Shown: positions 12,385 through 21,658 of the stretch, one piece after another
How the letters are laid out: each line of letters begins with the position of its first letter
How positions within the stretch are numbered: position 1 is the first letter of the stretch
Source of the DNA: Williamsia sterculiae
GTDB taxonomy: Bacteria; Actinomycetota; Actinomycetes; Mycobacteriales; Mycobacteriaceae
NCBI RefSeq assembly: GCF_900156495.1
Contig: NZ_FTNT01000003.1
Span: forward strand, 310,001 to 374,000
Length of the DNA: 64,000 bases
Direction of reading: 5' to 3'
Notes under the pieces: model-generated
What the model was told of the DNA's origin: nothing
What the model saw: only the letters and a program-made list of their open reading frames with translations
Database searches by the model: none
Position numbers and translations under genes: made by a program

Positions 12385-13278
12385 ATGACCACACTTGCCG
12401 CCGTCGCCGCGAACTTCACCCGCGACCTCGAACAGAACTACGCATTGATCGCCTCCCTCGTCGACGAGGCCAGAGACCGGAATGTGGACTTCCTGGTCTT
12501 CCCGGAGGCCGCCATCGGCGGTTACCTCTCCTCGCTGGGCAACCACGGCGACACCGTCCGCAACTCCGATCGCTCTCTGCCGCCGGCGATCTCGCTGGAC
12601 GGAGCCGAGATCCGACGGGTACAGGAGATCGTCGGTGATCTCGTGGTGGCGATCGGATTCTGTGAGATCGACAAGGACGGTGAGACGCGGTACAACGCGG
12701 CGGCGGTTCTCGACGGCACGCAGATCTACGGCTCCTACCGCAAGGTGCACCAACCCCTCGGCGAGAACATGTCCTACTCCGCCGGAGCCGAATACGGCGT
12801 CTTCGACACACCCGTCGGGCGGGTGGGACTGCAGATCTGTTACGACAAGGCCTTTCCCGAGGCGGCCCGATCGATGGCCCTGGACGGTGCCGAGATCATC
12901 GCCAGCCTCTCGGCCTGGCCGGCAGCGCGGACCGCCACCGCCGAGAACCTCCAGGACGACCGCTGGACGTACCGGTTCAACCTCTTCGACATGGCCCGTG
13001 CGCTGGACAACCAGGTGTTCTGGGTGTCCTCCAACCAGTCCGGCACCTTCGGATCGCTACGCTACGTCGGCAACGCCAAGGTCGTCGACCCGGGCGGAAA
13101 CATCTTGGCCACCACCGAACTCGGAAGCGGGATGGCCGTGGCCGAGGTGGACATCGCGGTCACCTTCCAGGCCATGCGGGGCGGCATGTTCCATCTCCGC
13201 GACCGCCGGCCGGACGTCTACACCGCCCTCACCGACCTCGACCACGGTGGCGCCTGGCAGGGACTCGCCCATGCCTGA
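12385..13278 (+). CDS. Nit1C nitrilase (Nit6803/Sll0784 family)
   Basis: 297 residues, carbon-nitrogen hydrolase superfamily. The catalytic triad is intact: Glu41 in FPEAAIGGYL, Lys120 in YRKVHQPLGE and Cys152 in GLQICYDKAFPE. The sequence matches the nitrilase of the nitrogen-starvation Nit1C clusters (Synechocystis Sll0784, mycobacterial homologues), which hydrolyse nitriles to acids and ammonia and are tied to cyanide assimilation in Pseudomonas. ATG 12385 has GAGGAAC five bases upstream. It overlaps the next gene by eight bases. The physiological nitrile is unknown. Confidence 0.88.
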   Translation: MTTLAAVAANFTRDLEQNYALIASLVDEARDRNVDFLVFPEAAIGGYLSSLGNHGDTVRNSDRSLPPAISLDGAEIRRVQEIVGDLVVAIGFCEIDKDGETRYNAAAVLDGTQIYGSYRKVHQPLGENMSYSAGAEYGVFDTPVGRVGLQICYDKAFPEAARSMALDGAEIIASLSAWPAARTATAENLQDDRWTYRFNLFDMARALDNQVFWVSSNQSGTFGSLRYVGNAKVVDPGGNILATTELGSGMAVAEVDIAVTFQAMRGGMFHLRDRRPDVYTALTDLDHGGAWQGLAHA

Positions 13279-13555
13279 GATGACCTTCGCCGTCCGCTGG
13301 CCCGACGGCGAGATCAGCGACTGCTACTCGCCGAGCCTGGTCATCCACGACCACATCCGGACCGGGATCACCTACTCCGTCGCGGATTTCGTGGAACGGA
13401 CCGGCGACGCCCTCACCGAGGCCGGTGAACGCGTCCGGGCCCGGTACGGTTTCGCCTGCACCTCCGCAGCCGCCACCGCAGACCACATCCGCAGTCGCGC
13501 CGATCGTTTCGACGACGACGCACTCGTCCACGTGGTCGCCATGCGCCCGCTCTGA
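13271..13555 (+). CDS. MSMEG_0570 family nitrogen starvation response protein
   Basis: 94 residues starting MPEMTFAVRWPDGEISDCYS. The match is to the small MSMEG_0570 family found only in Nit1C-type clusters; conserved features are FAVRWPDG, CYSPSLVIHDH and VADFVERTGDALTEAGERVRARYGFACT. No catalytic motif or membrane segment is visible. The start overlaps the nitrilase stop by eight bases, giving translational coupling. Role unknown; family association suggests it works with the nitrilase and the flavoenzyme. Confidence 0.82.
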   Translation: MPEMTFAVRWPDGEISDCYSPSLVIHDHIRTGITYSVADFVERTGDALTEAGERVRARYGFACTSAAATADHIRSRADRFDDDALVHVVAMRPL

Positions 13556-13667
13556 TCCCCGGGTATGTCACTCCCCAGCCTGCACTTGTTCGTACTGCAC
13601 GTCATCCTTCTGCACCTGCTCGACGCCTTCTACCCGGCACGAACCCACCCCTCGATCCGAGACAGCC

Positions 13668-14981
13668 ATGAATCCTTCTGCCACAACCACCGCCACTGCC
13701 CATCGACCCCTGCCCAGCCACGTCCCCGTCGTCGTCATCGGCGGCGGCCAGGCGGGTCTGTCGGTCAGCTGGTTTCTCACCGACCGCGACATCGACCACG
13801 TGGTGCTCGAGGCGCAGACCCCCATGCACGCCTGGTCCGACACCCGCTGGGACAACTTCACCCTGGTCACCCCCAACTGGCACTGCCGGCTGCCCGGCTA
13901 CCACTACGCCGATGACGATCCGGACGGCTTCATGACCCGCGACGAGGTCGTCACCTGGCTGCGGGGCTGGTTGGACACCTTCCGTCCGCCCGTGCACACC
14001 CACACCCGGGTCACCCGTCTGCAGCACGCCGCCGACGGCGGGTTCACGCTCACCGCGACCACCGAGAGCGGTGACACCGAGCTGACCTGTGACGAGGTGG
14101 TGATCGCGACCGGCGGCTACCCGATTCCGGTGGTCCCGCCGTTCGCGCCCCGACTCGATCCCGCAGTGACCCAACTGCATTCCGAGCAGTACCGCAACGC
14201 CGACCAGCTCGCCGACGGGGCCGTGCTGGTGGTCGGGTCGGGTCAGTCCGGCGCACAGATCGCCGAGGACCTGCACCTCGCCGGTCGTGACGTCCACCTC
14301 GCCATCGGCAGCGCACCCCGGGTGGCCCGGTTCTACCGGGGCCGTGACTGCATGACCTGGCTCGCGGAGATGGGTCTCTACGAGACCCCCGCGCGCGAGT
14401 ACCCGGGCGGCACGGCGGCGCGGGAGAAGACCAACCACTACGTGACCGGTCGCGACGGCGGTCGCGACGTGGACCTGCGTGCCTTCGCCCGCGACGGGAT
14501 GCACCTCTACGGCACCCTCGTCGACGGCCGGGACACGGCACTGCAGTTCGCGCCCACGCTCACCCGCGCCCTCGATCAGGCGGACGCGGTGTACAACTCC
14601 ATCTGCGCGGACATCGACCGCCACATCGAGTCCCAGGGGATTGTCGCGGGCCCGGCGGCGCGGTATCAGCCGGTCTGGGAACCCAGCACCGACCCCGAGT
14701 CACTCGACCTCGCGGCCGCCGGGATCACCACCATCGTCTGGGCCATCGGCTACCGGCCCGACTACCGGTGGGTCGAGGCCAGTGCCTTCGACGGCGGTGG
14801 ACGGCCGATGCAGACCCGTGGTGTCACCGAGGTCGACGGACTCAGCTTCGTCGGTCTGCCGTGGATGCACACCTGGGGTTCGGGACGGTTCCTCGGCATC
14901 GAGCGCGACGCCCGGCACATCGCCGATACCGTGACCGCACGCCTGCCGCGCGACGAACTGCGCATCGCGGCCGGCGAGTGA
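13668..14981 (+). CDS. MSMEG_0569 family FAD-dependent oxidoreductase
   Basis: 437 residues, FMO-like two-dinucleotide flavoprotein. The FAD Rossmann motif is VVVIGGGQAGLSVSW near residue 15-30; a second GxGxxG, VLVVGSGQSGAQIAEDL, lies near 185-200 for NAD(P)H; VIATGGYPIPVVP is the linking ATG motif. WDNFTLVTPNWHCRLPGY is characteristic of the Nit1C flavoenzymes, which are expected to oxygenate or oxidise a nitrogenous intermediate. ATG 13668 is chosen because residues upstream in the same frame show no homology and overlap the previous gene. The 112-bp gap before it contains three CTGCAC repeats with 15-bp period and no recognisable gene. Confidence 0.85.
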   Translation: MNPSATTTATAHRPLPSHVPVVVIGGGQAGLSVSWFLTDRDIDHVVLEAQTPMHAWSDTRWDNFTLVTPNWHCRLPGYHYADDDPDGFMTRDEVVTWLRGWLDTFRPPVHTHTRVTRLQHAADGGFTLTATTESGDTELTCDEVVIATGGYPIPVVPPFAPRLDPAVTQLHSEQYRNADQLADGAVLVVGSGQSGAQIAEDLHLAGRDVHLAIGSAPRVARFYRGRDCMTWLAEMGLYETPAREYPGGTAAREKTNHYVTGRDGGRDVDLRAFARDGMHLYGTLVDGRDTALQFAPTLTRALDQADAVYNSICADIDRHIESQGIVAGPAARYQPVWEPSTDPESLDLAAAGITTIVWAIGYRPDYRWVEASAFDGGGRPMQTRGVTEVDGLSFVGLPWMHTWGSGRFLGIERDARHIADTVTARLPRDELRIAAGE

Positions 14982-14997
14982 CGGGCCGGGACGGACC

Positions 14998-16449
14998 GTG
15001 CAGCAATCCATCTCGCGCCTGATCACCCGGCGGGCCCGGCAACACCCCGCACAGGTGGTGGTGACCGACGCCGACACCGGGCAGACCCTGACCGCCGACG
15101 CCCTGGACCGCGCGTCCAACCGTCTGGCCCGCGATGTGCTGGACCGCGGAGTCGGTACCGACGACCTGGTCGTCGTGGCGCTGCCCACCTCACCACAGTT
15201 CGTCGTCACGTGCGCCGCGATCTGGAAAGCCGGTGCCACCCCGCTACCGATGGATCCCGACCTGGCGCAAGGCGAGCGCGCCGCGCTCGAACGTCTGGCC
15301 CGCCCCCGGTTGGTGGTCGGCACGCCGCCCGCCGATCCGACGGTGCCCTGGCTACCCGACGGACACCGACCAGACCCCCGCACCCCCGACACCCCGCCGG
15401 CCGACGCCTGGGCGTCGTCGTGGAAGGCGCCCGCCTCGTCGGGGAGCACCGGGACCCCGAAGATCGTCCGGTCCACCACCCCGGCCCGGTTCGACCCCGA
15501 CACCCCGGTCGCGCCGTTCCTGCCGCGCGCGGTCCGCCAGCTCGTCACCGGGCCGCTGTGGCACTCGGCCTCGTTCACCTACGCCTTCCGCGGCTTGATG
15601 ACCGACCACTGCCTGGTGCTGACCCGCCGCAACGACGAAGCCACGGTGGCCCACCTGCTCGGTGCCCACCGGATCGGCTGGACCCTGTTGTCACCGGCCA
15701 TGATCCACCGACTGATGCGACTGCCGGCGTCGCACCGCGACCGCGTGGACACCGCCGCGCTGCGTTCGGTGCTGCACCTCGGGGCTCGCTGTCCGGTGGA
15801 CGACAAACGGGCGCTGATCTCCTGGTTGGGCCCCGACCGCGTGGTCGAGGTGTACGCCGGCACCGAGTCCAACGGGTTGACGATGATCGACGGCGCGGAC
15901 TGGCTCCACCACCCCGGGAGCGTGGGACGCCCGATCGGCGGTACCGAACTGCGCATCCTGCGCGATGACGGACGGACCGCCGAGCCGGGGGAGACGGGGC
16001 AGATCTGGATGCGGCGGCCCGGCCCGGCCCGCTACACCTACCTCGGTCGCACACCCCACCGGGACGACGACGGGTGGGACAGCCTCGGCGACGTCGGATT
16101 CGTCGACGACGACGGCTATCTCACCGTGCGTGACCGCGCCGACGACGCCATCGACTGCGGCGGAGACCCGGTCTACCCCGCGGATCTCGAGCAACGACTG
16201 TCCGACCACGACGCGGTGCGCGACGTGGTGGTGTGCGGATACCGCGACGCCGACACCGACCGGGTCGCAGTGGTTCTCGACATCGCTGACCACGAGGTCG
16301 ATGAGGGGAAACTCCACGACTTCGTCCGCGACCGATTGCCCGGTCACTGCGTCCCCGGTCCGATCGCCCTGCGCCGGACACCGTTGCGCAACGCCGCGGG
16401 CAAGGTGCGCCGCGCCGCGGTGCTGTCGGACACCATCCCGATGATGTAA
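14998..16449 (+). CDS. AMP-dependent synthetase/ligase (ANL superfamily) in the nit operon
   Basis: 483 residues from GTG 14998, 16 bp after the flavoenzyme. Adenylation motifs are present: ASSGSTGTPKIV (A3 P-loop), VYAGTESNGLTMI (A5), LGDVGFVDDDGYLTVRDRADDAIDCGG (A7-A8) and PLRNAAGKVRRA with the catalytic Lys of A10. It resembles bile-acid or carnitine/crotonobetaine-type CoA ligases and would activate a carboxylate as adenylate and probably CoA thioester. An ANL ligase is not part of the classical eight-gene cluster I know of, so its substrate is open: a nitrilase-derived acid is an attractive inference. No carrier protein lies nearby. Confidence 0.78.
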   Translation: MQQSISRLITRRARQHPAQVVVTDADTGQTLTADALDRASNRLARDVLDRGVGTDDLVVVALPTSPQFVVTCAAIWKAGATPLPMDPDLAQGERAALERLARPRLVVGTPPADPTVPWLPDGHRPDPRTPDTPPADAWASSWKAPASSGSTGTPKIVRSTTPARFDPDTPVAPFLPRAVRQLVTGPLWHSASFTYAFRGLMTDHCLVLTRRNDEATVAHLLGAHRIGWTLLSPAMIHRLMRLPASHRDRVDTAALRSVLHLGARCPVDDKRALISWLGPDRVVEVYAGTESNGLTMIDGADWLHHPGSVGRPIGGTELRILRDDGRTAEPGETGQIWMRRPGPARYTYLGRTPHRDDDGWDSLGDVGFVDDDGYLTVRDRADDAIDCGGDPVYPADLEQRLSDHDAVRDVVVCGYRDADTDRVAVVLDIADHEVDEGKLHDFVRDRLPGHCVPGPIALRRTPLRNAAGKVRRAAVLSDTIPMM

Positions 16450-16452
16450 CAC

Positions 16453-16485
16453 GCGCTTATTCCATCAACAACCACAACGCAATTC
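16453..16485 (+). promoter_or_regulatory. Second copy of the nit cluster upstream motif (GlnR-like)
   Basis: GCGCTTATTCC at 16453-16463, then AACCAC and CGCAA at the same spacing as at 12222-12260, beginning three bases after the ligase stop. The half-site pair here is ACAAC-n6-GCAAT (16468-16483), weaker than the first copy. It precedes the MSMEG_0572-type gene and implies a second nitrogen-controlled promoter inside the cluster. Confidence 0.55.
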
Positions 16486-16531
16486 GACACCGATGTACTG
16501 AGGTCACCGCGGGGTGTCGATCCTCGAACTC

Positions 16532-16585
16532 CGGATCGGTGGTCAACGCCGACCACCGATCCGCGGGACCCGACACGACGTCGGG
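16532..16585 (+). other. Strong stem-loop pair between the motif and the MSMEG_0572-type gene
   Basis: CGGATCGGTGGTC-aacgcc-GACCACCGATCCG (16532-16563) has 13 perfectly paired bases per arm. CCCGAC-acgac-GTCGGG (16569-16585) follows. There is no T-run, so this could be a terminator for the upstream ligase, an attenuator, or a leader structure for the downstream gene. Confidence 0.5.
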
Positions 16586-16633
16586 GGTAACACCCATCAC
16601 CGCGCCGGCGCGCGCACCACAGGAGGAAATCCC

Positions 16634-17158
16634 ATGTCCGACTTCGACGCCACCATCACCGAGAACATCGAGGCCTCACTGGCGGAGATACCGCACCCGT
16701 CGTTGCCCAAGGGCTCCAACATCTACGGCGGCACCAAGATCTTTCCCGACTACCAGGCCGAGGACGGCGAGACCTATTTCACGCTGGTCCACGGCATCGC
16801 CCACGAGTCGTCGGTGAGCTTCGTCGCGGTCCTGCAGGCCACCCGCGCCCTGCGCAAGGGTTTCGACTCCGCGCTGTACTTCTACGGCCCCGGATCTATC
16901 AACTGCCTGTCCACCCGCGGCTTCCCGACCACCGGGGACAACGGGTTCCCAGGTGAGCAGAACATCAACGACGCCCTCGAGACGTTCATCGGCGAAGGGG
17001 GCACGGTGTTCTGCTGCCGCTTCGGACTGGCCCTGCACGGTGGCCGCGAGGAGGATCTCATCTCGGGTGTCATCCCGGCGCACCCCCTCGACGTACAGGA
17101 TGCCGTCATCCACTACGCACGCAAGGGTGCGATCATCAACTCGACCTACATGGTCTAG
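16634..17158 (+). CDS. MSMEG_0572/Sll0783 family nitrogen starvation response protein
   Basis: 174 residues with the family's hallmarks: NIYGGTKIFPDYQAEDGETYFTLVHGIAHES, LRKGFDSALYFYGPGSINCLSTRGFPTTGD, ALETFIGEGGTVFCCRFGLALHG. The cyanobacterial homologue Sll0783 is a nitrogen-starvation-induced protein of unknown biochemistry. The fold looks like a DsrE-type small alpha/beta protein, but that is inference. ATG 16634 has an excellent AGGAGG seven bases upstream; earlier in-frame starts are inside the hairpin region. First gene of the second half of the nit cluster, nine bases before the radical SAM gene. Confidence 0.88.
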   Translation: MSDFDATITENIEASLAEIPHPSLPKGSNIYGGTKIFPDYQAEDGETYFTLVHGIAHESSVSFVAVLQATRALRKGFDSALYFYGPGSINCLSTRGFPTTGDNGFPGEQNINDALETFIGEGGTVFCCRFGLALHGGREEDLISGVIPAHPLDVQDAVIHYARKGAIINSTYMV

Positions 17159-17166
17159 GAGTCGAC

Positions 17167-18222
17167 GTGACCGCATCCACCCGAGTGGATCTGGCGTTGC
17201 TCGGAATTCGCGGCAGCCCACCCGTCAGCCGGACGGCAGGCGCCGGTCCCAGTGACGACGGGCACCTGGTCATCGACGGGCTGAACGCGGCGATTCCACG
17301 GAACCCGGACAGCCCTTTCGTTTTCGACGGTGGTCGCGTGCTGTATGACGGCGCCGACACCGGGCTGGACGTGATGGCGGTGGCGCGCCCCGCGTTCTAC
17401 GACCTGTACACCGACGACGGGATCAGGTACGAACGCATCGCGAAGCTGCACGGACGCGACGTGCTGGCGACGACCGTCGTGCAGACCTGTGTCCGCTACC
17501 GCGCGGACCAACGGTGTCGGTTCTGTTCCATCGAGGAGTCGCTGCGCGCCGACCAGACGGAGGCCGTGAAACGTCCCGGGGATCTCGCCGACGTCGCAGA
17601 GGCGGCCGTCCGGCTCGACGGGGTGTCGCAGATGGTGATGACCACGGGTACGTCCGCCGGCCGCGACCGGGGGGCACGCCACCTGGCCCGCTGCGTGCGT
17701 GCGGTGCGCGCCCGCGTCCCCGCCCTGCCCATCCAGGTGCAGTGTGAGCCGCCCGCCGACCTGTCCACCATCACCGAGCTCAGAGATGCGGGCGCAGACG
17801 CGATCGGCATACACGTGGAGTCGCTCGACGACGATGTCCGTCGCGCGTGGATGCCGGGGAAGGCGACGGTACCGATCTCCGACTATCGCGCCGCATGGAC
17901 CGAGGCGGTGCGGGTATTCGGTCGTAATCAGGTGTCCACGTACCTCATCGTGGGTCTCGGTGAGGACATCGACGAACTCGTCGCCGGTGCCGCCGATCTG
18001 ATCGAGATCGGCGTGTACCCGTTCGTGGTGCCGCTGCGTCCGCAACCCGGGACGTTGGCGGTGGATGTCGACGGTGCGCGGGCTCCCGACGCGACGGTGG
18101 TGGAGAAGGTCAGCAGACGGGTCGCCGAGATGCTGGTGGCGGCGGACATGGCTGGGTCAGGTCAGCGTGCCGGATGCGCGGCGTGCGGAGCCTGCAGCGT
18201 GCTCCAGAACGTTGGAGGGTGA
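17167..18222 (+). CDS. MSMEG_0568 family radical SAM protein
   Basis: 351 residues from GTG 17167. The cluster-binding cysteines are Cys108, Cys117 and Cys120 in QTCVRYRADQRCRFCS, a CX8CX2C spacing rather than the classical CX3CX2C but known for this family. TTGTSAGRDRGA, VQCEPPADLSTITELRDAGADAIGIHVES and STYLIVGLGED follow the radical SAM barrel order. The C-terminus carries Cys337, Cys340 and Cys343 in GCAACGACS, which could ligate a second iron-sulfur cluster. Cytoplasmic; the substrate is unknown. The next gene starts two bases after its stop. Confidence 0.87.
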   Translation: MTASTRVDLALLGIRGSPPVSRTAGAGPSDDGHLVIDGLNAAIPRNPDSPFVFDGGRVLYDGADTGLDVMAVARPAFYDLYTDDGIRYERIAKLHGRDVLATTVVQTCVRYRADQRCRFCSIEESLRADQTEAVKRPGDLADVAEAAVRLDGVSQMVMTTGTSAGRDRGARHLARCVRAVRARVPALPIQVQCEPPADLSTITELRDAGADAIGIHVESLDDDVRRAWMPGKATVPISDYRAAWTEAVRVFGRNQVSTYLIVGLGEDIDELVAGAADLIEIGVYPFVVPLRPQPGTLAVDVDGARAPDATVVEKVSRRVAEMLVAADMAGSGQRAGCAACGACSVLQNVGG

Positions 18223-18223
18223 C

Positions 18224-19639
18224 GTGGCCGCACACACCGCCGAGATGTCGATCCTGTCCGGACGCCGTCGCGCCGACGTCACCCCGGGTTTCCTGGTTCG
18301 GCGGGTCGACGGCGGCAGCGAGCTGACCGCCTACCGGCGACTACGCCGCGAGACGTTCGTCGACGAGCAGGGGTTGTTCACCGGTGACGACCACGACGAG
18401 GTCGACGACGACCCGCGCGCCGTCGTCCTGGTCGCGACCGGTGCCGACGACGCGGTGCTCGGCGGGGTGCGACTGTCGCCCCATGGCGTCCCGGACATCG
18501 GTTGGTGGACGGGGTCCCGCCTGGTCGTGGCGCGCGGCGCCCACGCGAGCGGAATCGGCGCGGCCCTGGTGCGTGCGGCCTGTGCCCACGCCCAGGAGCA
18601 CGGGGTGCTGCGTTTCGAGGCCACCGTGCAGCGGCGCCACTGGGCGATGTTCACCCGGCTCGGCTGGACGATACTCTCCGACTGTGAGGTGGCCGGCGTG
18701 GGCCACAGCCGGATGCGGTCGCCCATCGACACCATCCAGTCCGCGACGGACCGCACCAAGTCGTATCTCGCCGAGGTCCTGGCACCGCTGGCCGAGCAGG
18801 CGGGTGGTCTCGGGCCGCCGGGCTTTCGCGGTGACGACGGTGTGCCGGTGCCGGGCGGCGACACCATCGCCGCCTGCGACGCGATCATCCCGTCGATGGT
18901 GGAACGCGACCCGGAGTGGGCCGGATGGTGTTCGGTCCTGGTCAACCTCAACGACCTCGCCGCGATGGGGGCCCGTCCGACCGGACTGCTCGACGCCGTC
19001 GGCGCACCCACCCGCTCGGTGCTCACCCGGATCGTCCGGGGTATCGCCCACGCCGCCGCGGCGTGGGACGTCCCCGTCCTGGGCGGCCACACCCAGGTCG
19101 GTGTGCCTGCCTCGCTCAGCGTGACCGCGCTGGGTACCACCACCCGGCCGATCCGTGCCGGTGGTGCCAGCGTCGGCGATCGGCTCCGGCTGATCGCCGA
19201 TCTCGACGGTCGATGGCGTCCCGGACACCATGGGACGCAATGGGACTCGACTACGGGTCGGTCTGCGGCGGACCTCCGGTCGATGAATCGGGTGGTGGCC
19301 GACCTGTCACCCCGCGCGGCCAAGGACGTGAGCATGGCCGGATTGGCCGGGACCGCGGGCATGCTCGCGGAGGCGAGTGGCGCGGGTGTGGAACTCGACG
19401 TGACATCGATACCGCGTCCGGATGTCGCGGACATGGGGTCCTGGTTGACCTGTTTTCCCGGGTTCGCCATGTTGACCGCCGACCGAGCCGCGGCCGCGTC
19501 CCCCGAGGGGCTGCCGAACGGTGTCCGCTGCGCGGAGGTGGGGGTACTCGTCGACCGGCCCGGTGTGCGTCTGCGCTGGCCCGACGGTGCGACGACGACG
19601 GCGGTGGCGGCGGCCGTCACCGGGCTGGGTCGCGCATGA
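18224..19639 (+). CDS. GNAT N-acetyltransferase fused to AIR synthase-like domain (MSMEG_0567 type)
   Basis: 471 residues from GTG 18224. Residues about 20-165 are a GNAT domain (YRRLRRETFVDEQGLF, RLVVARGAHASGIGAALVRAACAHAQ with the acetyl-CoA loop, QRRHWAMFTRLGW). Residues about 175-471 are an AIR synthase/PurM-like domain (FRGDDGVPVPGGD, NLNDLAAMGARPTGLLDAVG, GGHTQVGVPASLSVTALG), a fold that makes ATP-dependent acyl-phosphate or amidine-type chemistry. In cyanobacteria and pseudomonads these are separate genes (Sll0786 and Sll0787). The fusion implies sequential action on one substrate. It starts two bases after the radical SAM gene. Confidence 0.85.
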   Translation: MAAHTAEMSILSGRRRADVTPGFLVRRVDGGSELTAYRRLRRETFVDEQGLFTGDDHDEVDDDPRAVVLVATGADDAVLGGVRLSPHGVPDIGWWTGSRLVVARGAHASGIGAALVRAACAHAQEHGVLRFEATVQRRHWAMFTRLGWTILSDCEVAGVGHSRMRSPIDTIQSATDRTKSYLAEVLAPLAEQAGGLGPPGFRGDDGVPVPGGDTIAACDAIIPSMVERDPEWAGWCSVLVNLNDLAAMGARPTGLLDAVGAPTRSVLTRIVRGIAHAAAAWDVPVLGGHTQVGVPASLSVTALGTTTRPIRAGGASVGDRLRLIADLDGRWRPGHHGTQWDSTTGRSAADLRSMNRVVADLSPRAAKDVSMAGLAGTAGMLAEASGAGVELDVTSIPRPDVADMGSWLTCFPGFAMLTADRAAAASPEGLPNGVRCAEVGVLVDRPGVRLRWPDGATTTAVAAAVTGLGRA

Positions 19640-19680
19640 CCGGACGCGATGCACCCGCGGCGGTGGCGCCCTCGGGCGCA

Positions 19681-19686
19681 TAGGAT
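19681..19686 (+). promoter_or_regulatory. -10-like element before the nitrilase paralogue
   Basis: TAGGAT, eight bases upstream of ATG 19695. If used it would give a leaderless internal transcript for the pseudonitrilase and glycosyltransferase. Confidence 0.35.
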
Positions 19687-19694
19687 CCGCTGTC

Positions 19695-20546
19695 ATGTCG
19701 CCGATCACCCTGGGAGCCGTCGCGGCCAATTTCGGGCGCGACCTCGACAGGTCCTTGGCCAAGGTCATCGGGATCATGGAGGCCGCGCGCCGCGACGGGG
19801 TCGACCTGCTGGTCTTCCCCGACGCGGCGCTGGGCGGGTACATCGGTGACCTGGTGGACCCGGACACCACGGAGCTGCCACCCGCCCTCGACCCACACGG
19901 TCCCGAGATCGCGGCCGTCATCGCCGCCGCCGGGCCGATGACCGTGTGCGTGGGGTATGCCGAGGCGGCCGACGCCTACCGGTACAACTCGGCGATCTGT
20001 GTGACCGGGGACGGGATCCTGGGTACCCATCGCAAGGTCCATCAACCGATCGGGGAGTCCCTGGCCTACGCCGCCGGCGACGCGTTCCGGGCGTTCGACA
20101 CCCCGGTCGGGCGATTGGGGATGCTGATCGACTACGACAAGACGTTCCCGGAATCCGCGCGGACCCTCGCCCTCGACGGTGCGGTGACGATCGCGGCGTT
20201 GTCGGCGTGGCCGGCGAGCGTGACCGATCGCGCCTCCCGACTGCCCGCGGACCGGCAGTCGCGGCTCTTCGACCTGTACGACGCGGCACGGGCCGCCGAG
20301 AACCAGGTTGTGGTGGTGTCCGCGAATCACACCGGGGTGATGGGCAGCCTGCGCTTCCTCGGACAGGCCAAGATCGTCGGACCCGGGGGTGAGGTGTTGG
20401 CGACCACGAGGTCCAAGGGCGGACTGGCGTCCGTCGCCATGGACATCGACGCCGAGATCGCCCGCGCACGAAGAACTCTGAGCCACCTCACCGAACGGCG
20501 TAGCGCGACCTACGATCTCGAACGCGGACCGACGGTGACGTCGTGA
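19695..20546 (+). CDS. Nitrilase paralogue with replaced catalytic residues (putative pseudoenzyme)
   Basis: 283 residues, clearly a duplicate of the nitrilase at 12385-13278: shared blocks include LGAVAANF/LAAVAANF, RKVHQP, FDTPVGR and the LSAWPA and AENQV/LDNQV regions. The catalytic Cys is replaced: LIDYDKTFPES has Asp146 where the active enzyme has ICYDKAFPEA. The catalytic Glu is also changed to Asp43 (FPDAALGGYI). Only Lys114 of the triad remains. The frame is intact with no stop or frameshift, so the protein is kept for another purpose, perhaps as a structural partner of the active nitrilase in its spiral oligomer or for binding without hydrolysis. Overlaps the glycosyltransferase by four bases. 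Confidence 0.85.
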   Translation: MSPITLGAVAANFGRDLDRSLAKVIGIMEAARRDGVDLLVFPDAALGGYIGDLVDPDTTELPPALDPHGPEIAAVIAAAGPMTVCVGYAEAADAYRYNSAICVTGDGILGTHRKVHQPIGESLAYAAGDAFRAFDTPVGRLGMLIDYDKTFPESARTLALDGAVTIAALSAWPASVTDRASRLPADRQSRLFDLYDAARAAENQVVVVSANHTGVMGSLRFLGQAKIVGPGGEVLATTRSKGGLASVAMDIDAEIARARRTLSHLTERRSATYDLERGPTVTS

Positions 20547-21658
20547 ACCCGGGACCCCGGGTCGCCTTGATCACCTACTCCACCAAACCGCGCGGTGGTG
20601 TGGTGCACACCCTGAATCTCGCCGAGGCGCTGGCGGACGCCGGAGCCGAGGTCACCGTGTGGTCGCTGGCCCGCGCGGGTGACGTCGGATTCTTCCGTGC
20701 CGTGGATCCACGAGTCCGCCTGCGACTGGTCGACTTCCCGGTGCGCGAGGACGAGTCCGTCACCGATCGCATCATCCGCTCCATCGACACCCTGCGCGCC
20801 GCGTTCACCCCCGACGACCATGACGTGGTGCACGCCCAGGACTGCATCAGCGCGAACGCCGTGGGAGCGTGTATCCGCACCATCCACCACCTCGACGAGT
20901 TCACCACCCCGGTCCTGGCCGACTGTCACGAGAAGGCGGTCGTGGAACCGTACGCGCGGATCTGCGTCTCCCGTGCGGTGGCGGACGAGGTGACCACGGG
21001 ATGGGGTCTGTCGCCGACCGTGATACCCAACGGTGTGGTCGCTCGGCGGTTCGCCGATGCGGCGTCGTGGGCGCCGCCCGCGGTTGCGGGACGGGCGCGG
21101 TGGCGGGATCGATTGGGTGCGTACGTACTCGCCGTCGGTGGTATCGAGCCACGCAAGGGCAGTATCGATCTGATCGAGGCCTATGCGCGTCTGCAGTGCG
21201 ATCATCACGGCGTGTCCCTGGTGTTCGCTGGTGGCGAGACGCTGTTCGACTACCGCGCATATCGATCCGAGTTCGACCGTCGTGCACGGGAACTAGGGGT
21301 GACGCCGGTGGTCCTGGGGCCGGTCGACGACGATGCGTTGCCCGCGCTGGTGGCGGCCTCCGACGCGTTCGCGTTCCCGTCGACCAAGGAGGGTTTCGGG
21401 CTCGCCGCGATGGAGGCGCTCGCCGCGGGACGGCCGGTGGTGGCCCGCGACCTGCCGGTGTTGCGCGAGGTGTTCGGCCCGACCGTGCGGTACGGCTCGG
21501 ATCCGAGGGGTTTCGCTGCCGAGTTGTCCGCAGCACTGGACGATTCCGGTGACGGGTCACGTGCCGACGCGGGACGGCGGCTGGCCGCGTCGCTGACCTG
21601 GCAGAGCGCGGCGGCCGCGCACCTGCGCTTCTACGCCGAGAACCCGCTGCGCCGCTGA
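20543..21658 (+). CDS. MSMEG_0565 family glycosyltransferase (GT4)
   Basis: 371 residues from GTG 20543, overlapping the previous stop by GTGA. GT-B fold: the N-terminal half starts RVALITYSTKPRGGVVHTLNLAEAL, and the C-terminal half has YVLAVGGIEPRKGSIDLIEAYARL and the nucleotide-sugar site PSTKEGFGLAAMEALAAGRPVVARDLPVLREVFG. It is the last gene of the nit cluster and points to a glycosylated small molecule or glycosylated intermediate as product. The donor and acceptor cannot be read from sequence. Its 3' end overlaps the convergent nucleoside hydrolase gene by 28 bp. Confidence 0.85.
   Translation: MNPGPRVALITYSTKPRGGVVHTLNLAEALADAGAEVTVWSLARAGDVGFFRAVDPRVRLRLVDFPVREDESVTDRIIRSIDTLRAAFTPDDHDVVHAQDCISANAVGACIRTIHHLDEFTTPVLADCHEKAVVEPYARICVSRAVADEVTTGWGLSPTVIPNGVVARRFADAASWAPPAVAGRARWRDRLGAYVLAVGGIEPRKGSIDLIEAYARLQCDHHGVSLVFAGGETLFDYRAYRSEFDRRARELGVTPVVLGPVDDDALPALVAASDAFAFPSTKEGFGLAAMEALAAGRPVVARDLPVLREVFGPTVRYGSDPRGFAAELSAALDDSGDGSRADAGRRLAASLTWQSAAAAHLRFYAENPLRR

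Follow-up and report, generated by a model that had tools for sequence, protein, structure and literature searches.

The window, i.e. the whole stretch of 64,000 nucleotides that was analysed, contains a forward-strand gene cluster with two paralogous genes of the carbon-nitrogen hydrolase family. One of them encodes a protein with the catalytic residues intact, including Cys at the nucleophile site (C-form), while the other has Asp at this site (D-form). The genes of the cluster and the codons at the former active site of the D-form are:

12385-13278, + strand: C-form paralogue with intact E-K-E-C, at the position of MSMEG_0571 (PF00795; position by gene order)
13271-13555, + strand: MSMEG_0570 family nitrogen starvation response protein (TIGR04042, 121.9 bits, cut-off 79.85)
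13668-14981, + strand: MSMEG_0569 family flavin-dependent oxidoreductase (TIGR04046, 635.3 bits, cut-off 498.35)
14998-16449, + strand: AMP-binding (acyl-CoA synthetase-like) ligase, an insert in the cluster that is optional in relatives (PF00501; gene orders of relatives)
16634-17158, + strand: MSMEG_0572/Sll0783 family protein (TIGR04044, 250.8 bits, cut-off 109.85)
17167-18222, + strand: MSMEG_0568 family radical SAM protein (TIGR04043, 497.5 bits, cut-off 303.7)
18245-19639, + strand: MSMEG_0567 fusion of a GNAT and an AIR-synthase-like part (TIGR04045 and TIGR04050, both over cut-off)
19695-20546, + strand: D-form nitrilase-fold gene at the position of MSMEG_0566 (open frame; PF00795, 1.9e-29; AlphaFold2 model; PDB matches)
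19821-19823, + strand: codon 43, GAC, Asp at the catalytic Glu site (128 orthologues: Asp 113, His 8, Gly 7, Glu 0)
20034-20036, + strand: codon 114, AAG, catalytic Lys kept (128/128 orthologues)
20055-20057, + strand: codon 121, GAG, further conserved Glu kept (127/128 orthologues, one Asp)
20130-20132, + strand: codon 146, GAC, Asp at the catalytic Cys site (128/128 orthologues)
20543-21658, + strand: MSMEG_0565 family glycosyltransferase (TIGR04047, 458 bits, cut-off 259.85)

The 0572, 0570, 0569, 0568, 0567 and 0565 families, all over their NCBIfam cut-offs within 13271-21658, match six of the eight gene families of the gpr operon of Mycolicibacterium smegmatis (MSMEG_0565-0572). The two carbon-nitrogen hydrolases were matched by position, and the equivalence of the D-form with MSMEG_0566 is therefore one of gene position, not of sequence comparison. 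Compared with gpr, the cluster in the window has the ligase as an extra gene. It lies between the flavoprotein and the MSMEG_0572-like genes, and among the best 80 loci of the named-genome scan described below a relative of it was found inside the cluster in 15 cases and after it in one. The MSMEG_0565 glycosyltransferase gene directly follows the D-form gene at the 3' side, in the window as well as in all 80 of these loci (best 80 of 501 matches).

The preliminary description had assigned the gene to a Nit1C cluster. This label suits the neighbouring genes, as radical SAM, GNAT, AIRS and flavoprotein genes and two small proteins are, by their NCBIfam names, common to the window and to Nit1C in the portions of PMC1199592 considered. 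It does not suit the two paralogues. According to the same portions, Nit1C of Podar 2005 contains one subfamily-1 nitrilase, whereas the window has two carbon-nitrogen hydrolase paralogues, and both of these (28.6 bits for the D-form, 40.4 bits for its neighbour) remain far below the cut-off of 502.6 for TIGR04048, which describes the Nit6803-type nitrilases. A subfamily-1 nitrilase was hence not found in the cluster, and since neither paralogue is a Nit6803-family nitrilase, we apply the name Nit1C to the neighbouring genes only.

In the excerpts of the M. smegmatis literature that were available, the gpr operon is described as GlnR-dependent and as required for peroxide resistance under nitrogen starvation (PMC6039565). 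MSMEG_0566 is listed with 2.96-fold in nitrogen limitation and named an aliphatic amidase in an excerpt of PMC4617892; it is given as 8.94-fold in nitrogen-starved wild type over a glnR deletion in an excerpt of PMC4222082, which likewise uses the name aliphatic amidase and, in the passages covered, does not mention the triad. The authors of PMC6039565, in the part considered, suggested that a UGA in MSMEG_0571 is a selenocysteine codon that fuses MSMEG_0571 with MSMEG_0569. In the window, the C-form gene and the MSMEG_0569 gene are separated by the MSMEG_0570-like gene, the start of which overlaps the 3' end of the C-form gene; in our view, this makes ordinary termination of the C-form more likely than a selenocysteine fusion.

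The D-form gene is an open frame of 283 codons and a stop codon, encoding a protein of 283 amino acids. It is separated by 55 bases from the MSMEG_0567-like gene upstream and overlaps the glycosyltransferase gene by four bases at its 3' end, in line with the earlier view of an open frame inside a tightly packed operon. With 103.2 bits for PF00795 (CN_hydrolase) it clearly exceeds the gathering score of 23.2, as does its C-form neighbour, which with 49% identity is its closest relative in the genome. In the alignment of the two proteins, Asp43, Lys114, Glu121 and Asp146 of the D-form stand against the E-K-E-C of the neighbour. The exchanges of Cys for Asp and of Glu for Asp, with Lys kept, were thus correctly read at the outset, and so were the codons around Asp146 (ATC GAC TAC GAC), which give no support to a misread frame. 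The Glu-Lys-Cys triad of the catalytic nitrilase superfamily is therefore absent, with both the Glu and the Cys site replaced. The neighbour had been called an active nitrilase; what its sequence shows is an intact triad, and its activity is putative.

To place these exchanges in a wider context, the residues were tabulated over the paralogues, as the preliminary description had recommended. The orthologue set was drawn from the family matches and from relatives at the level of class and phylum; 226 matches minus 33 duplicates and two weak ones left 191, comprising 128 D-forms and 63 C-forms. As D-forms were defined by Asp at the Cys site, the count of 128/128 at this position holds by definition. 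Lys is kept in all and the further Glu in all but one of the distinct D-forms, while the Glu site is occupied by Asp, His or Gly, and never by Glu. EKEC was found in 62 of the 63 C-forms; the remaining one is truncated and shows a gap where the Glu should stand. What counts is that, within the family sample, each of the 107 intact best orthologues carries Asp at the Cys site. An independent scan of named genomes used two peptide patterns that leave out sites 43 and 146 but contain D-form-type residues at sites 188 and 191, so that it is designed to pick up D-form relatives. Among its 501 matches, the best 80 all had Asp at the Cys site, with Asp (76) or His (4) at the Glu site. The genera among these 80 loci include Mycolicibacterium, Gordonia, Williamsia, Nocardia, Rhodococcus, Millisia and Dietzia. 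Since all 128 distinct orthologues and all of the best 80 named loci share it, Asp146 is neither a chance event nor a read error. The original statement that two of three catalytic residues were lost is right in that both have changed, but it understates the pattern, because the Cys site is fixed as Asp and only the Glu site drifts.

The framework around these sites is largely shared between the two forms. Of 70 sites with at least 95% conservation in C-forms, 55 are kept at this level in D-forms, and several of the other 15 narrowly miss it. Clearly lost are Glu43, Cys146, Phe216 and Asp267 (kept in 0/128), Trp207 (12/128) and Gly93 (52/128). Conversely, Asp146, Gln188 and Leu191 are specific to the D-forms and found in 128/128, and Thr150 and Arg179 in 127/128. 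Three residues of the C-form, R176 (57/63), W188 (54/63) and R191 (59/63), are possibly substrate contacts, judging from the alignment. They are replaced by V, I or L, by Gln (128/128) and by Leu (128/128), respectively, in the D-forms, for which reason the D-form may bind another ligand or make no use of the pocket. Cys85, which is invariant in 25 aligned D-forms, was considered as a candidate for a nucleophile that has moved. A metal site in place of the triad, as the Asp/His exchange at site 43 might indicate, was dropped because seven orthologues have Gly there.

The AlphaFold2 model of the D-form, built with 45 sequences (pLDDT 90.4, pTM 0.90), confidently predicts the alpha-beta-beta-alpha nitrilase fold. 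Its best matches in the PDB are 6ypa (Z 35.3) and 1j31 (Z 34.8), both of the PH0642 amidase of Pyrococcus horikoshii; 6ypa superimposes with an rmsd of 1.6 over 255 residues at 29% identity. This entry is a C146A variant, in which the exchanged residue occupies the position of Asp146 of the D-form. PH0642 works as an amidase with a Cys; the D-form, in contrast, has Asp in place of both Cys and Glu. In the model, Asp146 lies at a strand-helix turn between strand 141-145 and helix 146-150, while the changes R191L and W188Q fall in helix 187-203. Which residues contact a ligand in the D-form pocket we infer from the aligned sequences, and these contacts are putative.

In the family sample, 401 genomes were searched at 1e-30 and 109 of them matched the D-form. 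In 107 the match was a D-form, and all 107 have at least two matches at this threshold. The radical SAM family TIGR04043 was counted over 381 genomes, taken as the first 381 of the 401; it occurs in 102, and the same 102 carry a D-form. The two non-D matches are a broken relic in G193 and a C-form in G217. The relic is 82.6% identical to the D-form and 56.7% to the C-form; at this locus (L267) it is accompanied by a glycosyltransferase fragment, and no radical SAM match was found in the genome. In G217, which is 85% complete, the C-form lies beside the 0572, 0570 and 0569 genes, with no D-form match and a weak radical SAM match. One genome of the class sample, G966 (L091), has a lone D-form: no cluster genes were found within 15 kb, the genome gave no radical SAM match, and the protein deviates at several positions that are conserved in the other rows.

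The class sample is less uniform. TIGR04043 was found in 44 of 296 genomes. A D-form is present in 27 of them, 12 contain only a C-form, and five gave no match at 1e-45. Each of these 27 has two matches at 1e-45; a C-form was read in 25, and in the other two the second match has 49-51% identity. Whether the pair occurs in all actinobacterial clusters, a question raised at the outset, can thus be answered: the D-form accompanies the radical SAM gene in 102/102 family genomes, each with a second homologue at 1e-30, but in only 27/44 of the class sample, so that the pair is not universal in actinobacteria. As 17 of these 44 clusters are without it, the D-form is not needed everywhere. The gene orders of the relatives revealed no rule by which another cluster gene would explain its absence. 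The five genomes without a paralogue match at 1e-45 (G965, G984, G999, G1116 and G1123) have divergent radical SAM genes (E about 1e-111 to 1e-118) and may hold another nitrilase type. In a genome of another class, G763, D-form and C-form lie side by side; a search around it at class level at 1e-45 matched one of 198 genomes, G763 itself.

With three trait columns removed and the root unsettled, a tree of 25 D-form and 31 C-form rows sets the D-form clade against the C-forms of the cluster. The D-forms make up one side of a branch with a support of 100/93, recovered in 99% of 200 bootstrap trees; another thinned tree contained 35 D-form, 50 C-form and two outgroup rows. As the D-forms form one clade, the duplication seems to be older than their spread over many actinobacterial families. 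Alternatively, the pair can have been transferred between families as a unit, which a plasmid copy on pLP1 (see below) would allow. For 71 genomes with both forms, a dS range of 0.1 to 1 left 767 of 2485 pairs, over which the median dN/dS was 0.190 (D-form) and 0.164 (C-form). The dN/dS calculation that had been proposed for the paralogue therefore shows that the D-form clade is under purifying selection. A conserved clade without the catalytic residues and under purifying selection has the sequence hallmarks of a pseudoenzyme, and we describe the D-forms as a conserved pseudo-nitrilase or repurposed nitrilase clade, which is more general than the window alone shows. A recent pseudogene is ruled out by the dN/dS of about 0.19 and the single D-form clade.

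Because the Cys site is Asp in every relative compared, the D-form is probably repurposed and not simply broken. If only hydrolysis had been lost, variation would be expected at the former Cys, as is seen with Asp, His and Gly at the Glu site. The fixed Asp, together with the remaining Lys and further Glu, instead favours a retained pocket with a specific role of Asp146. The preliminary description had argued that a function was retained, and a function probably other than thiol hydrolysis agrees with the strict conservation, the single clade, the purifying selection and, in the family sample, the exact co-occurrence with the radical SAM gene. We consider it moderately probable that the D-form is a repurposed nitrilase fold that binds a gpr intermediate and perhaps also acts on it, though not by thiol hydrolysis. 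In this view the D-forms, an old sister group of the C-form, would have abandoned hydrolysis by Cys and Glu. Asp became fixed where the nucleophile had stood, whereas Lys, the further Glu and the greater part of the conserved framework were retained. We infer this loss of hydrolysis, binding in the pocket and a step in the MSMEG_0565-0572 pathway, the ligand being perhaps an amide- or nitrile-type intermediate. The AIR-synthase-like fold of the MSMEG_0567 protein includes ATP-using, amide-activating enzymes such as HypE, which makes an amide or nitrile plausible; the match of this part to the HypE model itself is weak (21.1 bits, cut-off 251.6). The D-form would then belong with the radical SAM, GNAT-AIRS and glycosyltransferase genes (0568-0567-0565), and would not be a regulatory subunit of the C-form.

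The relation to the C-form was evaluated by distance correlations, which reflect shared inheritance and linkage besides function, in two sets: 66 of the best 80 named loci in which all seven proteins are present, and 37 loci consisting of 36 relatives and the window. In the first set, the raw correlation between D-form and C-form was 0.76, while the D-form correlated with 0565 and 0567 at 0.87, with 0568 at 0.89, with 0569 at 0.82 and with 0572 at 0.71. The partial correlation between D-form and C-form dropped to 0.05 (66 loci) and 0.03 (37 loci), and that between the C-form and 0569 was 0.89 and 0.54. In 300 subsamples of the 37-locus set, the 5-95% ranges were -0.08 to 0.14 and 0.40 to 0.66, respectively. 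For the D-form, partial correlations in the 66 and 37 loci were 0.29 and 0.26 with 0565, 0.28 and 0.16 with 0567, 0.11 and 0.25 with 0568, and 0.11 and 0.28 with 0569. As the 37 loci also give 0.27 between the C-form and 0567, exceeding the value of the D-form, the modules are not sharply separate. The C-forms split into two subtypes of 47 and 19 loci, the distances of which track the flavoprotein MSMEG_0569 and not the D-form. In five genomes (G142, G105, G010, G039 and G308), the D-form locus is separate from that of the C-form, which shares about 80% identity with the C-form of the window and is adjoined by the flavoprotein gene in all five and by the 0572 gene in four. In three of them (L051, L246 and L221), the D-form locus is a reduced cluster, 0572-0568-0567-0570-D-0565, without C-form and flavoprotein. 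From these loci, C-form and flavoprotein tend to move as a unit while the D-form stays with 0568, 0567 and 0565.

The unlinked loci and the near-zero partial correlation speak against a dedicated heteromer of the two forms, and the proposed role as a regulatory partner within nitrilase filaments gains no support and is not favoured. A related alternative, which we think unlikely, is a prozyme-like function: a non-catalytic D-form would join the C-form in one assembly, as its activator, stabiliser or cap, and its pocket would be kept for fold or allostery. Proteins of the nitrilase superfamily oligomerise, a second homologue exists in every searched D-form genome with the cluster (family sample at 1e-30, class sample at 1e-45), and the D-form-specific R191L and W188Q changes share one helix. 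There is a precedent in the AdoMetDC prozyme of trypanosomes, as far as the abstracts of PMC5201418 and PMC6221367 indicate, where a dead paralogue is retained beside its active relative; a complex of D-form and C-form would be putative, and co-evolution does not point to one. Such a partnership fits poorly with the partial correlations, with C-form subtypes that follow the flavoprotein, with C-forms at a separate locus in five genomes and with the 12 of 44 C-form-only clusters of the class sample, and it leaves the fixed Asp at position 146 unexplained.

Catalysis by a new set of residues would be in keeping with this Asp, as simple loss does not require an Asp fixed in 128/128. Asp146, Lys114 and Glu121, the latter two being kept in 128/128 and 127/128, could together catalyse a step on a pathway intermediate, for instance by direct water activation, acyl transfer or a lyase or cyclase step. 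The tolerance of the Glu site for Gly and His weighs against this, and a natural Asp-based enzyme with the nitrilase fold was not met in a literature search conducted largely at the level of titles and abstracts; we regard this possibility as distinctly improbable. The boldest reading makes the D-form an enzyme whose thiol nucleophile gave way to an invariant Asp. It would process, without hydrolysis, an amide or nitrile intermediate on which the radical SAM and AIR-synthase-like proteins also work; we consider this somewhat less doubtful, but still unlikely. The same search, with its title- and abstract-level coverage, met no description of a Cys-to-Asp change in a nitrilase-fold clade or of Asp-for-thiol non-hydrolytic chemistry in the superfamily.

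A decaying, functionless duplicate, to which the two changed catalytic residues, the isolated copy in G966 and the damaged relic in G193 might point, has a negligible probability and is, in our view, already refuted for the clade as a whole by 128 distinct orthologues in one ancient clade with a dN/dS of about 0.19 and by the D-form in 102/102 radical-SAM-positive family genomes. The orphan and the relic both come from genomes that gave no radical SAM match.

The probably repurposed D-form concerns a cluster that is widespread in actinobacteria, nitrogen-regulated and linked to peroxide resistance in M. smegmatis, and the literature passages covered contain no identification of its product. 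The fixed Asp in place of Cys offers a sharp handle on one component of gpr, and Asp-for-thiol chemistry, if true, would help to reveal the product of the Nit1C/gpr pathway. Labels such as 'carbon-nitrogen hydrolase family protein' and 'aliphatic amidase' imply a hydrolysis that the D-form clade probably cannot perform in the usual way; the former is given to both paralogues in the record of plasmid pLP1.

Two D-forms that are 74-77% identical to that of the window come from records titled Kitasatospora arboriphila (L246) and Acidobacteriaceae isolate BOG_194 (L203). Both resemble the D-forms of the window's family, and the records are likely mislabelled or mis-binned. On pLP1 of R. qingshengii (L285, 1-11422), two IS3 transposase genes that share the protein accession WP_231783803.1 flank the cluster, which comprises eight genes including both paralogues, as if it could move as one unit; the plasmid is typed as mobilizable.
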